A stretch of 60,861 bases of DNA from an uncultured Pseudohongiella sp. Lineage in GTDB: Bacteria; Pseudomonadota; Gammaproteobacteria; Pseudomonadales; Pseudohongiellaceae. Below the pieces are notes generated by a model, which worked only from the letters and a program-made list of their open reading frames with translations, searched no databases and was not told the origin of the DNA. Within the stretch, counting starts at the first letter, position 1; each line of letters starts with the position of its first letter. Positions 10,036-56,591 of the stretch are shown one piece after another. A program made the translations under genes and the position numbers. The stretch lies in the NCBI GenBank assembly GCA_902591495.1, contig CACJAW010000009.1, forward strand, positions 1 through 60,861, read 5' to 3'.

Positions 10036-11592
10036 ATGCAATTCCTCAAATTAATTCGTTGTCTTCTTATAGTAGTGTTCGGATTATCGTTAGCAGAGCA
10101 ATCGATAGCCCAACAAGAGGCCGAAGCTTATTCCGGGGTTACTGAATCGCGCTTGATGTTTCAAGAAAATTGCGCAGTTTGCCACGGAGAAAGCTTAGAG
10201 GGCACGGGTCAAGGATCACCGCTTCGGGGCAGCCTAATTCATGGGGAGTCGATAGAAGCAATCGTCACTAGCATAACCAACGGGTATGAAGTTCAAGGCA
10301 TGCCAAGTTGGCGAGACATCTTCAGCCCGACTGAAATCCGTGGCTTGGCCATGTACTTGATGGAAACTCGAAATAATGTTGGCTATGTCACCTCGAATTA
10401 TGACACAGATTTCACTTTACCTGACGAGGTTTTCGAAACCTCTTTGCACGACTTTAGTTTAGAAATTATCGCTGAAGATTTAGACCCACTCCCCTTTTCA
10501 ATCGAACCGATGCCAAACGGTGACATTCTCGTCACCGAAAAAACTAAGGGGGTACGAATCATTCGTCAAGATGACGGTCGGTCGGATCTCATCCAAGGCA
10601 CTCCCACAGCTTACGACGACATATACAGACTAGAATCCCGAATTGACATTGAGAGGGGTATGGGCTGGTTATTTGATATCAAACTTCACCCAAATTATGT
10701 TGAGAATGGCTGGATCTACCTTTATCACAGCCACCGCTGCACAGACTGCAATGAAGCAAGTCGTAGAGAGGAAAGACCTGTTTCCATGAACAGACTCGTT
10801 AGGGGCAGATTGGATGGCATTAACTGGATAGATCAAGAGGTAATTTGGCGAGCTCCTATAGAAGATTATTTTTTTGCCGGGGATGTTGGTGCTGGCGGTC
10901 GTATTACATTTGACAATAGGGGTCATGTATACTTTTCAATTGGTATGAAATGCGGCGGACAGGGGGGAGGCATTCAAAATCTAGCTACACCATGCGGCAA
11001 GATTCATCGAGTTAATTATGACGGGTCTATTCCTGAAGACAATCCATATTTCGGCGTTGAAAATGTTTATGAAAGCATCTACACCTATGGTCATCGAAGT
11101 CCACAGGGGCTTGAATATGACCACAACAACGGCGAGCTTTGGGGAAGTGAGCATGGCCCACGAGGTGGCGACGAAATTAACCGATTGCTTCCTGCGGAAA
11201 ATTATGGATGGCCCCTCTACTCAACCGGTTTGCACTACGACGGGAGTCGAGTGAATGGACTAGATCTCGGGATTGCTTTTGAGCTATCCGACATAACGCA
11301 ACCGGTCGTGGACATGACACCGTCTCCCGCTGTTTCCAGTTTCATAATCAGTCAAAGCGAGAAATTTCCTAATTGGAAAGGTGACTTCATTGTTGGATCC
11401 CTAAAATCGCGAAGCTTATTTCGTATTGATATAGAGAATAACCGCTTCATCGAGACAGAGACTTTGTTCGAGGGCATTGGCCGTATTCGAGATGTGGAGA
11501 TGGGTTTGAATGGAACTATCTATCTTCTTTTTGAGCATGGTGAAGGCGGCAAGATTGTCTCACTAGTCCCTAACAATCAGGCTGGGGAATGA
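10036..11592 (+). CDS. Cytochrome c fused to PQQ-dependent sugar (glucose/sorbosone) dehydrogenase domain
   Basis: This 518-residue exported protein has a signal peptide (to about residue 26) and a cytochrome c domain with C-A-V-C-H (Cys46, Cys49, His50) and a probable Met89 ligand in VQGMPSW. A six-bladed GSDH propeller follows from about residue 140 to the end. Propeller hallmarks include SIEPMPNGDILVTEK, GWLFDIKLHPNY, YGHRSPQGL, WGSEHGPRGGDEINRL and NYGWP. Such enzymes oxidise aldoses or other alcohols with PQQ; the fused haem would take the electrons directly. The substrate is unknown. Its stop overlaps the ATG of the selenoprotein candidate in an ATGA. Confidence 0.88.
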   Translation: MQFLKLIRCLLIVVFGLSLAEQSIAQQEAEAYSGVTESRLMFQENCAVCHGESLEGTGQGSPLRGSLIHGESIEAIVTSITNGYEVQGMPSWRDIFSPTEIRGLAMYLMETRNNVGYVTSNYDTDFTLPDEVFETSLHDFSLEIIAEDLDPLPFSIEPMPNGDILVTEKTKGVRIIRQDDGRSDLIQGTPTAYDDIYRLESRIDIERGMGWLFDIKLHPNYVENGWIYLYHSHRCTDCNEASRREERPVSMNRLVRGRLDGINWIDQEVIWRAPIEDYFFAGDVGAGGRITFDNRGHVYFSIGMKCGGQGGGIQNLATPCGKIHRVNYDGSIPEDNPYFGVENVYESIYTYGHRSPQGLEYDHNNGELWGSEHGPRGGDEINRLLPAENYGWPLYSTGLHYDGSRVNGLDLGIAFELSDITQPVVDMTPSPAVSSFIISQSEKFPNWKGDFIVGSLKSRSLFRIDIENNRFIETETLFEGIGRIRDVEMGLNGTIYLLFEHGEGGKIVSLVPNNQAGE

Positions 11593-12188
11593 AGAAATAT
11601 AACTTGAAGGTATTCATAGATTACATCTGACCATGGTGTTATCTCAGTACTGTAAGTATTGAAAAGTTGAAAGTTCGTTATCCCATTAATGTCCAATTGA
11701 TCTATTTCCCCCTACACCCAGAAACACCAGAAGGGGGCATAACCCTGGAGGAATTATTCCCCGGTAGAAACCTAAACCCAATGAAAGAGAATATGAAAAG
11801 GTTGATGCGAGAAGCTGGGCTAGAATATGGAGAACGGTCACATACATTCAATAGTCGCCTTGCCCAGGAATTAGGTAAGTGGGCTGATTCTCAAGATGAG
11901 AAGTCTGAGATACATGATTTAATTTATAGAGCTTACTTCGTCGAAGGCAAAAACATTAGCGATATGGATGAGTTGCTAAAAATTGCTGAAACAGCTGGCT
12001 TTGATAGAACGAGCGCGAAAGAGATTCTGGAAAAACGATCATTCAAACTCATTGTAGACGAGGATTGGAAAAAAAGCCGGGAACTTGGCATCACAGGTGT
12101 TCCGACTTTTCAGCATAAACAACACTTGCTGGTTGGCTGTCAGCCCTATGAAATACTTGAGCATTTTGTTAACACTCCAACCAAGTAA
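11589..12188 (+). CDS. DsbA/FrnE-family oxidoreductase, probable selenoprotein (UPWC active site, TGA at 11628-11630)
   Basis: Read from the ATG at 11589, this frame gives MKKYNLKVFIDYI, then TGA, then PWCYLSTVSIEKLKVRYP, and continues open to 12188. That is 199 residues with the TGA as selenocysteine 14. The TGA replaces the first cysteine of the CPWCY motif that follows the first beta strand in FrnE/2-hydroxychromene-isomerase-like DsbA proteins. Further family marks are the LIYFPLHPETPEGG segment and the cis-proline GITGVPTF (Pro172). Without the TGA the frame opens only at a TTG (11667), losing strand one and the active site. A SECIS candidate lies just downstream. The ATG overlaps the preceding stop, so translation is coupled. 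UxxC thioredoxin-fold selenoproteins are a known class; no sel genes lie in this window. Confidence 0.85.
11644..11662 (+). promoter_or_regulatory. Bacterial SECIS element candidate for Sec insertion at 11628-11630
   Basis: An 8-bp stem is formed by TCAGTACT (11644-11651) and AGTATTGA (11655-11662), with one G-U pair and apical loop GUA. The loop begins 22 nt after the TGA and its first base is G. Known bacterial SECIS elements have a short stem, a loop about 16-37 nt from the UGA and a G among the first loop bases, so position and form fit. Hand folding only. Confidence 0.6.
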
Positions 12189-35695: not shown

Positions 35696-36511
35696 TTACT
35701 TGCCATCTCTTTTACAGACTTCTGAAGCAACTTCGCAAAGTGCCGCAACCATAGACTCCGTATCAGCTCCTTGAGCAAGTTTCACTTGCTCAAACCCGAA
35801 CCCCACTGCCAGCCGACCGACGCGAGCAGAAGGTACTACCATAGGCATGTGAAAAAATTTTGGGAATGTATTCCTACTTTCTAGAAACAGTTTATTAAGT
35901 ACATTAAGAGAATCACCACTAGTAATGGTTAAGACATTAACATGATTTTCAATTAATATTCCTAAAAGTGCCTGACAGCTTCTCTTGGTAGGACTTCGCT
36001 GATAGACCTCTATATAGTCTACTTCGGCTCCACGTGCTTTTAGAATGCCACCCAGAAATCCACGTCCACCTGTACCTCTAAAAATCGCAATTCTTTTCCC
36101 CTCGACATTCATTAAACTAGGTAATGCCACTAAGTCCTCACTCACAGATCCATTCTCAGGATGTATAACTTCGCAACCAAAATAATCGGATGCCATTTTT
36201 GCTGTACCAGACCCAATAGCGATTACCTCACTATCAATTGGCAGCTTATGCCAATTTGCATTGATTATTGTAGCCCCATACCGAACTGCATTTTTGCTAA
36301 CAAAAATTAAAATGTCATAATCATCAAGTTTTTCAATTGCATATCTCAGCAAGTTTATTCGAGATTCCTCTGTAATTGTCTCTATTTCCAACAGCGGAAA
36401 ATTTACGGTTTGTCCACCGAAATTCCTTACTGCTAATGCTAAGTTTTCTGATAACTGCTCGGGGCGGGTAATTAGTACTCTCATCCCGCTTAAGATTTCA
36501 GAGTGTGTCAT
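35696..36511 (-). CDS. hemD: Uroporphyrinogen-III synthase
   Basis: This 271-residue HemD cyclises hydroxymethylbilane with inversion of ring D. The family is poorly conserved, but MRVLITRPEQLSENLA, FVSKNAVRYG, AIGSGTAKM, IAIFRGTGGRGFL, YIEVYQRSP and LTITSGDSLNVL fit the two-domain fold. It is 9 nt downstream of hemC. Confidence 0.9.
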   Translation of the reverse strand: MTHSEILSGMRVLITRPEQLSENLALAVRNFGGQTVNFPLLEIETITEESRINLLRYAIEKLDDYDILIFVSKNAVRYGATIINANWHKLPIDSEVIAIGSGTAKMASDYFGCEVIHPENGSVSEDLVALPSLMNVEGKRIAIFRGTGGRGFLGGILKARGAEVDYIEVYQRSPTKRSCQALLGILIENHVNVLTITSGDSLNVLNKLFLESRNTFPKFFHMPMVVPSARVGRLAVGFGFEQVKLAQGADTESMVAALCEVASEVCKRDGK

Positions 36512-36520
36512 ATCCTTTAT

Positions 36521-37447
36521 TCACTCTTGTCGGAGCTCGTCGAGAATACTGCCGGCACCTTTGTTAAGTAAATCGTCGGCAACTCGTAGCCCAAGTTCCC
36601 AAGCAGAATCACAATAATCTACATGCTCACTTCTAACTATATGAGTGCCATCCACTCTGCCGACCAAGGCACGCAACCTCATTTCATTTTTGTACAATTC
36701 AGCATAGCTCGCTATTGGTACTTGGCAACTTCCTTGAAGCCTTTGATTTACCGCGCGCTCTGCTAGAACGCAAGAAGCAGTTGCAGCATCATGAATAGTG
36801 CTTATAATTTTTTGCGTCTCTTTATCATCTACGCGTGATTCTATTCCGACTGCACCTTGACCCGCTGCCGGCAAACATTCTTGAGGTTCTAGACGACTGC
36901 TAATTCGGCTGTTTTGGTTTAATCTGATTAAGCCGGCACTAGCGAGAACTATGGCATCATAATTATCTTCGTCTAACTTGCGTAAACGTGTACCAACATT
37001 CCCTCTAAGATCTGTAATCTGGAGATCTGGGCGAATGTACTTTAACTGACATTGCCTTCGTAAGCTCGATGTACCAATTATCGCTCCTTTTGGCATATCT
37101 TCCAGATTGCGAAACTTATTTGAAACTAAAGCATCAGTGGGATCTTCGCGTTTGCAGATTCCTGCAAGTTGTAATCCTTCCGGAAACTCCATTGGAACAT
37201 CCTTCATAGAATGAACTGCTACATCTGCAGAATCTTGTAATAAGGCCATTTCAAGTTCTTTGACAAATAATCCTTTTCCGCCAATTTTTGCTAGCGGACT
37301 ATCGAGAATCTTGTCGCCTTGAGTGCTCATAGGAACAAGCTCAACCTGTAAGTCCTTATGAGCTTTTTCCAAAGATTGGCGTACAAAGTTTGCTTGCCAA
37401 AGGGCTAATGGGCTCTTTCTAGTGGCTATTCTCAGTTTTCTGCTCAT
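36521..37447 (-). CDS. hemC: Porphobilinogen deaminase (hydroxymethylbilane synthase)
   Basis: This 308-residue enzyme polymerises four porphobilinogens. The N-terminus [25 protein letters not shown] and [10 protein letters not shown] are diagnostic, and the dipyrromethane-cofactor cysteine is present in [11 protein letters not shown]. It is first gene of hemC-D-X-(Y) and divergent from argH. Confidence 0.95.
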
Positions 37448-55667: not shown

Positions 55668-56591
55668 CCTTGCTAATCTGTAAAAGACCCTTTGGAGAAA
55701 TCCATTTTTTAGTTTCATCATGGATGAAAACCAAAGGCATAAATTTTCCTTAAAGCTCAAAAAACGTCCAAAACGGGTTTTAAACTCAAAAGCCTGATAC
55801 GCGACTTCAACCAGGTGATCGCTTTTTTTAGGGGCAAAGACAACATGCATAATTTTCGTTCTAGACTGATGATGCTTTTTAAATTCTTTAGCTCCAATCG
55901 TATTATTTTCGTGCTGTCGGTATTCGACTAGGGGTATATCTATGTATATGACTCGCCCGAATGCCGAAGCGATCAGAGCTAACCACCAGTCATGCATTAT
56001 TGCGTTATCAGGTATTGGAAGCGCTATTTGGGAGAGTTCTTCATTAAAGAGGGTTGTGCACCCTGTTACAAGATTACTTATAACAACGTTTGTGAATTTA
56101 TTCCGTTTTATTTCAAGCCCTTGATATTCAACAAATGACTCTGCGATTATTGTTTTGCTTTCGTCGACAACTTTTAGATCAGAGTGCACCAAAATCGGTA
56201 TATCAGGCGATTTTTGCTCAGCATTAAGCATCTCAGACATTTGTACTTCAAGTTTATTTTCAGCCCAAATATCATCTTGATCACACAGCATCATGTATAA
56301 ACGAGAAAGTCCCAATGCGGTTTTTTCTTTGATGATGTACTTAATTAGTATGCAGAAACTAGAACTCGGGCCAACGTTAGATTTTTTGCCCGGTAACTTA
56401 TAGATTTTTCCTCGATTTTTATCTACATAATGATTAATTATCTTTTCGGTAGAGTCAGTTGAGTCGTCATCTCTTATTATTATTATAAAGTTAGAATAGG
56501 TTTGCTTAAGCAGAGAATCTAATTGTTCCGCCAGATAGTCTTCACCATTATAGGTAGACAGAAGAATTACAATTTTAGGTTCTAAGTCCAT
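55659..56591 (-). CDS. Family 2 glycosyltransferase (rhamnosyltransferase-like)
   Basis: This 310-residue GT-A protein has IVILLSTYNGEDYLAEQLDS, IIRDDDSTDSTE and MLCDQDDIWAENK, plus an acceptor-side segment AIMHDWWLALIASAFG. Such proteins typically transfer rhamnose or related sugars to O-antigen. It is second of a three-gene minus-strand set and starts one base after the upstream gene stops. It overlaps the convergent plus-strand gene by 9 nt. Confidence 0.88.
   Translation of the reverse strand: MDLEPKIVILLSTYNGEDYLAEQLDSLLKQTYSNFIIIIRDDDSTDSTEKIINHYVDKNRGKIYKLPGKKSNVGPSSSFCILIKYIIKEKTALGLSRLYMMLCDQDDIWAENKLEVQMSEMLNAEQKSPDIPILVHSDLKVVDESKTIIAESFVEYQGLEIKRNKFTNVVISNLVTGCTTLFNEELSQIALPIPDNAIMHDWWLALIASAFGRVIYIDIPLVEYRQHENNTIGAKEFKKHHQSRTKIMHVVFAPKKSDHLVEVAYQAFEFKTRFGRFLSFKENLCLWFSSMMKLKNGFLQRVFYRLARLF

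Follow-up and report, generated by a model that had tools for sequence, protein, structure and literature searches.

The window analysed here, a stretch of 60,861 nucleotides, belongs to a 2.1 Mb draft genome of an uncultured Pseudohongiella sp. that is 66% complete. A frame at 11589-12188 reads MKKYNLKVFIDYI-TGA-PWCYL... and closes with a TAA stop; within its 199 residues, the TGA at codon 14 is the sole in-frame stop before that TAA. The original prediction, in which this TGA was taken for a selenocysteine (Sec) codon, withstands re-reading of the sequence and its translation: the ATG at 11589 leads to TGA at 11628-11630 as codon 14 and then through P-W-C-Y to 12188, the start codon lies in an ATGA overlap with the upstream gene at 10036-11592, and the alternative TTG start at 11667 yields 173 residues lacking the active site. 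That TTG is where the ORF begins under the standard code, with loss of the first strand as well, and gene calling by the standard code would leave no more than a fragment that lacks the active site.

The frame is not a product of chance, since its translation, with the TGA read as Cys, matches the Pfam DSBA family over residues 6-193 (E 1.5e-30; 106.8 bits against a gathering cut-off of 25.6) and since the TGA-containing frame is kept in 119 other intact copies (68 + 52 rows minus the window). The in-frame TGA at residue 14 almost certainly encodes selenocysteine, which would make the gene a selenoprotein gene (Table 1). The observations behind this reading are the frame itself, the conservation of the codon, the constraint on the RNA, the Sec machinery of the genome and the predicted fold.

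Table 1. Features at the locus in window coordinates, and AhpC/TSA genes with in-frame TGA in the same genome
Feature	Position	Strand	Remarks
Cytochrome c + glucose/sorbosone dehydrogenase domain gene	10036..11592	+	overlaps start codon of selenoprotein gene by ATGA
FrnE/DsbA-type selenoprotein gene, predicted	11589..12188	+	199 aa, U at residue 14, TAA stop included
Selenocysteine UGA codon, predicted	11628..11630	+	residue 14, first residue of UPWC
Cys17 codon TGT	11637..11639	+	last residue of UPWC; Cys codon in 120/120 intact Sec rows
Bacterial SECIS-type hairpin, predicted	11644..11662	+	7-bp stem, 5-nt loop; from alignments, pair counts and codon freeze
Pro172 codon, cis-Pro position (GVPT)	12102..12104	+	P in 68/68 genus rows; invariant in 24 aligned sequences
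AhpC/TSA gene	L139 (G000:C18:15309-15674)	-	in-frame TGA
AhpC/TSA gene	L140 (G000:C20:23121-23585)	+	in-frame TGA
AhpC/TSA gene	L142 (G000:C69:2315-2680)	+	in-frame TGA

Conservation of the TGA codon among relatives

The window protein (P0001) served as query against 137 genomes of its family. Within its own genus, TGA occupies residue 14 in 67 of 84 genomes (68 intact copies), while the 13 orthologues of two sister genera, 40-46% identical, all have Cys and further genera of the family hold more distant Cys proteins. A spread of 390 genomes across the order gave 12 matches at E 1e-25 or better, two of which carry TGA, both in another family. When 200 genomes of this second family were sampled, 52 matched; TGA is present in 51 of them (52 copies) and TGC in the remaining one, G536. 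The genome_contigs collection holds 30 relatives, 29 with TGC or TGT and a single TGA copy that is the same record as a member of the genus; L010, among the 29, is G536 again, to judge from its position and the length of its contig, which leaves 28 other relatives. L007 and L049 share record and coordinates and were counted once. Family-search matches in G011, G021, G022, G025, G032, G036, G045, G048, G050, G052, G074 and G092 were left unfetched, as were second, distant matches of genus genomes and a second piece of G679 in the second family.

The in-frame UGA is thus retained in homologues and aligns with Cys in the sister genera and in other phyla. Homologues with Cys or Sec at residue 14 were to be looked for as a check on the prediction, and the TGA does sit on the first Cys of CPWC: FrnE/DsbA relatives carry Cys at this residue, and the motif of the Cys relatives falls in the same place. 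The concern that homologues might start only after the motif proved groundless, the Cys homologues having CPWC at the corresponding position.

A doubt already raised with the prediction was that the codon at 11628-11630 is really TGC or TGT and the TGA an assembly or sequencing error; TGA and the Cys codons are one base apart, and the genome is a draft of 66% completeness. This codon is TGA in 67 genus genomes and in 51 from the second family, three of the TGA genomes being listed as single contigs (G134, G135, G136), and these independent genomes refute the error, whose probability is negligible.

A nonsense mutation, leaving either a pseudogene or expression only from the TTG at 11667 as a 173-residue protein without active site, is very improbable. 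The standard code does give exactly this TTG ORF, and one relative, G077, carries a decayed copy (L116, G077:C185:20700-21730) with two TGA codons and Arg replacing Cys17. Against decay in the window stand the first strand, which precedes the TGA, and the motif UPWC, both kept in 68 genus rows (Pro15 in 67, Leu in one), the synonymous freeze in the hairpin described below, and the comparison with the nearest copy (96%), in which 29 codons differ, 22 of them synonymously and 7 nonsynonymously, none in codons 1-25. The decayed copy was excluded from the pair, codon and tree counts; its host genome still has selB over the cut-off. Two genomes hold two TGA copies each: those of G525 (L168 and L202) are divergent, and those of G067 (L095 and L105) are near-identical and lie on two contigs.

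Among viral contigs no relative was confirmed. Phages gave four distant matches (26-27% identical), and the 761 matching plasmid records were all below 60% identity, with 31.5% as the best among the matches listed.

Selenocysteine machinery and the meaning of TGA in the genome

A search of the rest of the genome for selA, selB, selC and selD, suggested with the original prediction, found all four. Profile scores were 573 bits for selA (cut-off 268), 399 bits for selB (cut-off 242) and 297 bits for selD (cut-off 125); tRNA-Sec scored 62 bits against a gathering threshold of 47 and was called by ARAGORN as tRNA-SeC with anticodon tca (UCA). The selD match (L046:253-2529, plus strand) takes up the C-terminal portion of a frame of 758 aa, and the N-terminal half of that frame has, by eye, the look of a pyridine-nucleotide oxidoreductase. 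The active-site region of this SelD reads CAGCGAK, with Cys and not Sec.

Across relatives, selB over the cut-off was found in 59 of the 67 TGA genomes of the genus, with no miss among the 38 whose listed completeness is 90% or more. The second family has it in 41 of its 51 TGA genomes as well as in G536; among the sister-genus Cys genomes, 2 of 13 had it. It was missing in 18 of the 118 TGA genomes (8 of 67 in the genus, 10 of 51 in the second family). Five of the ten second-family misses are listed as at least 90% complete (G539, G522, G680, G524, G580), one of these five being in 8 contigs; assembly gaps are the sole account that can be offered for them.

Under a changed code, or with a suppressor tRNA, UGA could be read as Trp or Cys instead of Sec, and the frame would be open just the same. 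TGA still ends 19 of the 44 ORFs of at least 200 aa in the window. On the minus strand at 35696-37447, hemC and hemD (names assigned by eye) form one frame split by a TGA stop, with hemC ending directly before hemD; this TGA is an ordinary gene boundary and a sign that the codon still terminates. With tRNA-Sec (anticodon UCA), SelA, SelB and SelD present in the genome and a specific hairpin kept after the UGA, such a reassignment is exceedingly improbable.

The genome appears to use Sec elsewhere too. Three of its ten AhpC/TSA-family matches carry one TGA within the matched stretch (L139, L140, L142), in the contexts FTGGUTMQC, DWUPYC and HWUPYC, which are catalytic Cys positions in AhpC/TSA-type proteins; these three genes are likely further selenoproteins, as far as their reading frames indicate. 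In the same, incomplete genome SelW (PF10262) had no match, and none of the three matches to the molybdopterin family PF00384 had a stop inside the matched stretch, so that there is no sign of a Sec formate dehydrogenase.

The upstream dehydrogenase gene was found in 10 of 60 loci, many of which had short flanks; the ten comprise the window and one record present twice, which leaves eight other genomes. It lies directly before the selenoprotein gene in five of these (L049-L052, L054); in two more the gap is about 0.2 kb, and in the eighth about 0.7 kb. This association is a hint of co-expression rather than of function. Sec insertion by its nature competes with release, and the UGA might act as a regulated codon, a stop under selenium shortage and Sec under ample supply, its translation being coupled through the ATGA overlap to the dehydrogenase gene before it. 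The overlap of the ATG with the upstream stop and the recurrence of the arrangement in the five other genomes lend this some support; it extends the reading of the UGA as Sec and is no alternative to it. Such regulation is possible and rather unlikely.

The hairpin downstream of the UGA codon

In the window, the predicted SECIS-type hairpin reads UCAGUAC-UGUAA-GUAUUGA, with the loop UGUAA at 11651-11655 and a conserved G at 11652, and the spacing from UGA to loop is 20 nt. A published bacterial SECIS (bSECIS) model specifies an apical loop of 3-9 nt, an upper stem of 4-16 bp, a G in the first two loop positions, a spacing of 16-37 nt from the UGA, and a minimum free energy (MFE) of -7.5 kcal/mol or lower (PMC13188914). 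Loop, stem, G (loop position 2) and spacing all fall within these limits. The MFE does not, being -6.7 at 42, 48, 54 and 60 nt against -7.5, a limit reached by 32 of 68 genus rows at 48 nt and by 59 of 68 at 60 nt; a subset of putative SECIS elements is noted in the review itself to fail its model (PMC13188914). Taken by itself, the hairpin of the window folds unremarkably (z -0.70, with 47 of 200 shuffles matching its stability), and single-sequence folding was set aside as uninformative evidence for a SECIS element. An Rfam match on the hairpin was likewise dismissed as a single chance match (8.9 bits against a threshold of 77). Given the weak fold of the window and the missed MFE limit, the case for the hairpin rests on comparative data.

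Synonymous positions are frozen across the hairpin. In the 68 genus rows, pairwise codon identity is 0.79-1.00 at codons 19-25 versus 0.28-0.52 at codons 26-40, with Leu19 as CTC in 66/68, Ser20 as AGT in 64/64, Ser23 as AGT in 68/68 and Ile24 as ATT in 65/65. Upstream of the hairpin, there is comparatively little variation at codons 12, 13 and 17 either (0.84, 0.78 and 0.89), in contrast to codon 18 (0.49). The 13 Cys orthologues have 0.24-0.46 at codons 19-25, except at codon 20, which reaches 1.00 within its two residues. The freeze is looser in the second family (Ile24, for example, is ATT in 43 rows, ATA in 4 and ATC in 3), where the changes are largely compensated.

RNAalifold on the 68 rows returned the same seven stem pairs, with covariation contributing little (-0.11 of -5.89). 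In the full set of 120 rows, 85 of them distinct, standard pairs fill 99.3% of 680 cells. Cells with both sides changed number 28, whereas shuffles give 2.7 and slid versions of the alignment no more than 13; none of the 500 shuffles and none of the slides reaches the covariation score. Two of five pair measures do not go beyond shuffles: pairs changed on both sides (3) were equalled by 10 of 500 shuffles (23 of 500 in the 68-row version), and further pair types (9) by 178 of 500 (347 of 500 in the 68-row version). The rows of the alignment are related, which inflates the other pair measures, and many of the covarying cells are inherited. Compensated changes occur in the stem at columns 19-33 (A-U, G-C, U-A) and 21-31 (U-A, C-G). 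The apical pair 24-27, around G followed by U or G, is C-G in 64 rows, A-U in 9, U-A in 7 and G-C in 4, with one U-U row; genus rows show U-A in a single group of seven and A-U in a single row, which makes two events there.

Sixteen second-family rows (L157, L159, L161-L164, L166-L172, L176, L177, L203) have the loop CGGGC at alignment columns 24-28, where Gly-Arg replaces Val-Ser at residues 22-23. This loop is an RNA signal that shapes the protein sequence.

These patterns may be drawn together into a distinct SECIS tip shared by two families, an RNA that partly dictates residues 20-24, and an old, shared Sec gene with at least two reversions to Cys, a reading with about an even chance of being right. 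The tip would consist of an invariant G followed by U or G and capped directly by an exchangeable Watson-Crick pair between columns 24 and 27 (C-G, A-U, U-A or G-C), with a single unpaired base 3′ of the cap pair (A; C in 16 rows). Pairing would thereby come one position closer than in the quoted bacterial SECIS pattern, N1-G[G|U]-N-N2. The residues 20-24 so affected would lie in the first helix of the enzyme. A covarying SECIS apex amounts to a testable statement on what SelB reads.

Fold, proposed chemistry and history

The structure was modelled with AF2 from an alignment of 24 of 31 sequences (the window and its genome_contigs relatives), with Cys in place of Sec. The mean pLDDT is 94; residues 4-10 make up the first strand of the model and a helix begins at residue 15, in keeping with the claim that the residues before the TGA form the first beta strand. 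In Foldseek the top-ranking entries are those of FrnE (5co3: E 1.3e-14, TM 0.88 on the query). The assignment to FrnE holds by sequence as well: among solved structures, FrnE of D. radiodurans (DR_0659; PDB 5cnw, 5co3, 5coh, 5cp1, 5xwh) is the best match by sequence (E 6.3e-18) and by fold. It has the same CPWC motif and differs in having Cys at the first position, where the window protein has Sec. SCO1869 of Streptomyces coelicolor (PDB 3gl5), also among the nearest, shares the DsbA/FrnE fold and CPWC and is likewise a Cys form. NCBIfam gave a sub-threshold match only (29.8 bits against a cut-off of 190).

Since no signal peptide was recognised by eye, the protein is probably cytoplasmic; D. 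radiodurans FrnE is also predicted to be cytoplasmic (PMC8945050). U14, C17 and C184 are the only Cys or Sec residues among the 199, and the C-terminal CXXXXC of the FrnE subfamily is absent. That motif is reported in many, not all, FrnE proteins, those of D. maricopensis and S. roseofulvus being described without it (PMC8945050), and its absence here suggests that regeneration should resemble that of FrnE proteins lacking it.

The likely role of the protein is that of a cytoplasmic thiol-disulfide oxidoreductase with a Sec14-Cys17 cycle. In DsbA/FrnE chemistry, the N-terminal residue of the motif is the nucleophile and the C-terminal one the resolving residue. The hairpin just 3′ of the UGA would recruit SelB loaded with Sec-tRNA-Sec, and the ribosome would place selenocysteine at residue 14 rather than terminate. 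Sec14, as a nucleophile of low pKa, would attack a substrate disulfide or another oxidised thiol, Cys17 would resolve the mixed selenenylsulfide, and the Sec14-Cys17 bond would then be reduced by the cellular thioredoxin or glutathione system. GVPT provides the cis-Pro position, as had been proposed, and Pro172 would face Sec14 and Cys17 from there, its cis state being that expected of the thioredoxin fold.

A part for Cys184 as a third, resolving thiol coupled to Sec was considered and dropped. Among readable rows, Cys stands at this position in 66 of 67 from the genus and in 1 of 43 Cys rows, but the second family has it in just 20 of its 51 Sec rows; its replacement in the other 31 means that it is not essential. 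Residue 184 is Cys also in L199, a Cys copy of the second family.

DsbA-like UxxC selenoproteins (COG2761/PF01323) have been on record since 2005. COG2761 is taken here to be the COG of FrnE. A 'DsbA-like protein' of COG2761 with UXXC, represented by nine sequences, was one of 15 new selenoprotein families from the Sargasso Sea (PMC1088965), and 'DsbA 1' (PF01323, UxxC) accounted for 63 sequences in the GOS set (PMC2398784). Reviews list a DsbA-like selenoprotein as predicted, with NIP15863.1 as representative (PMC13188914, PMC9312934), and DsbA-like selenoproteins of anaerobes have been described (PMC1794560). According to the published descriptions, which and not the sequences were the basis of comparison, the window protein shares with the DsbA-like selenoproteins (form 1) PF01323, Sec as the first residue of UxxC, a SECIS-type hairpin after the UGA and an origin in sea water, and no difference could be shown; it likely falls in the same subclade as published members such as NIP15863.1. 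Among the papers listed for selenoprotein or selenocysteine together with FrnE, none had a title or abstract opening that concerned a Sec-containing FrnE. The finding is correct as far as can be judged from sequence, yet its kind is already known, since DsbA-like UxxC selenoproteins are in print.

The history of the Sec form was followed in a tree of 140 rows (68 + 13 + 6 + 53), from which other Cys rows, L010 among them, were left out. The 13 sister-genus Cys proteins and G536 are nested among Sec rows, with the outgroup Cys rows outside, and the starred branches force at least three label changes. They are most simply read as one gain plus two reversions to Cys. The tree leaves the origin of the Sec form unsure, since its branches are long, its root is weakly supported (80/66) and forks close to the base stay open; nor was the matter settled by a tree without the second family, built from 112 of 120 rows (without L007, L009, L030, L032, L033, L034, L036 and L116). 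The Cys form of G536 (L199, G536:C5:58761-59963, also L010), surrounded by Sec forms in the tree and encoded by a genome that has retained selB, is a candidate Sec-to-Cys reversion. Together, the 120 Sec rows and the nested Cys orthologues offer a good natural experiment on the retention or loss of Sec in a cytoplasmic disulfide oxidoreductase.

Elsewhere in the window, at 56213-56291 on the minus strand, an Rfam match to the eukaryotic snoRNA SNORD36 lies just over threshold (E 0.48) and is almost surely due to chance.
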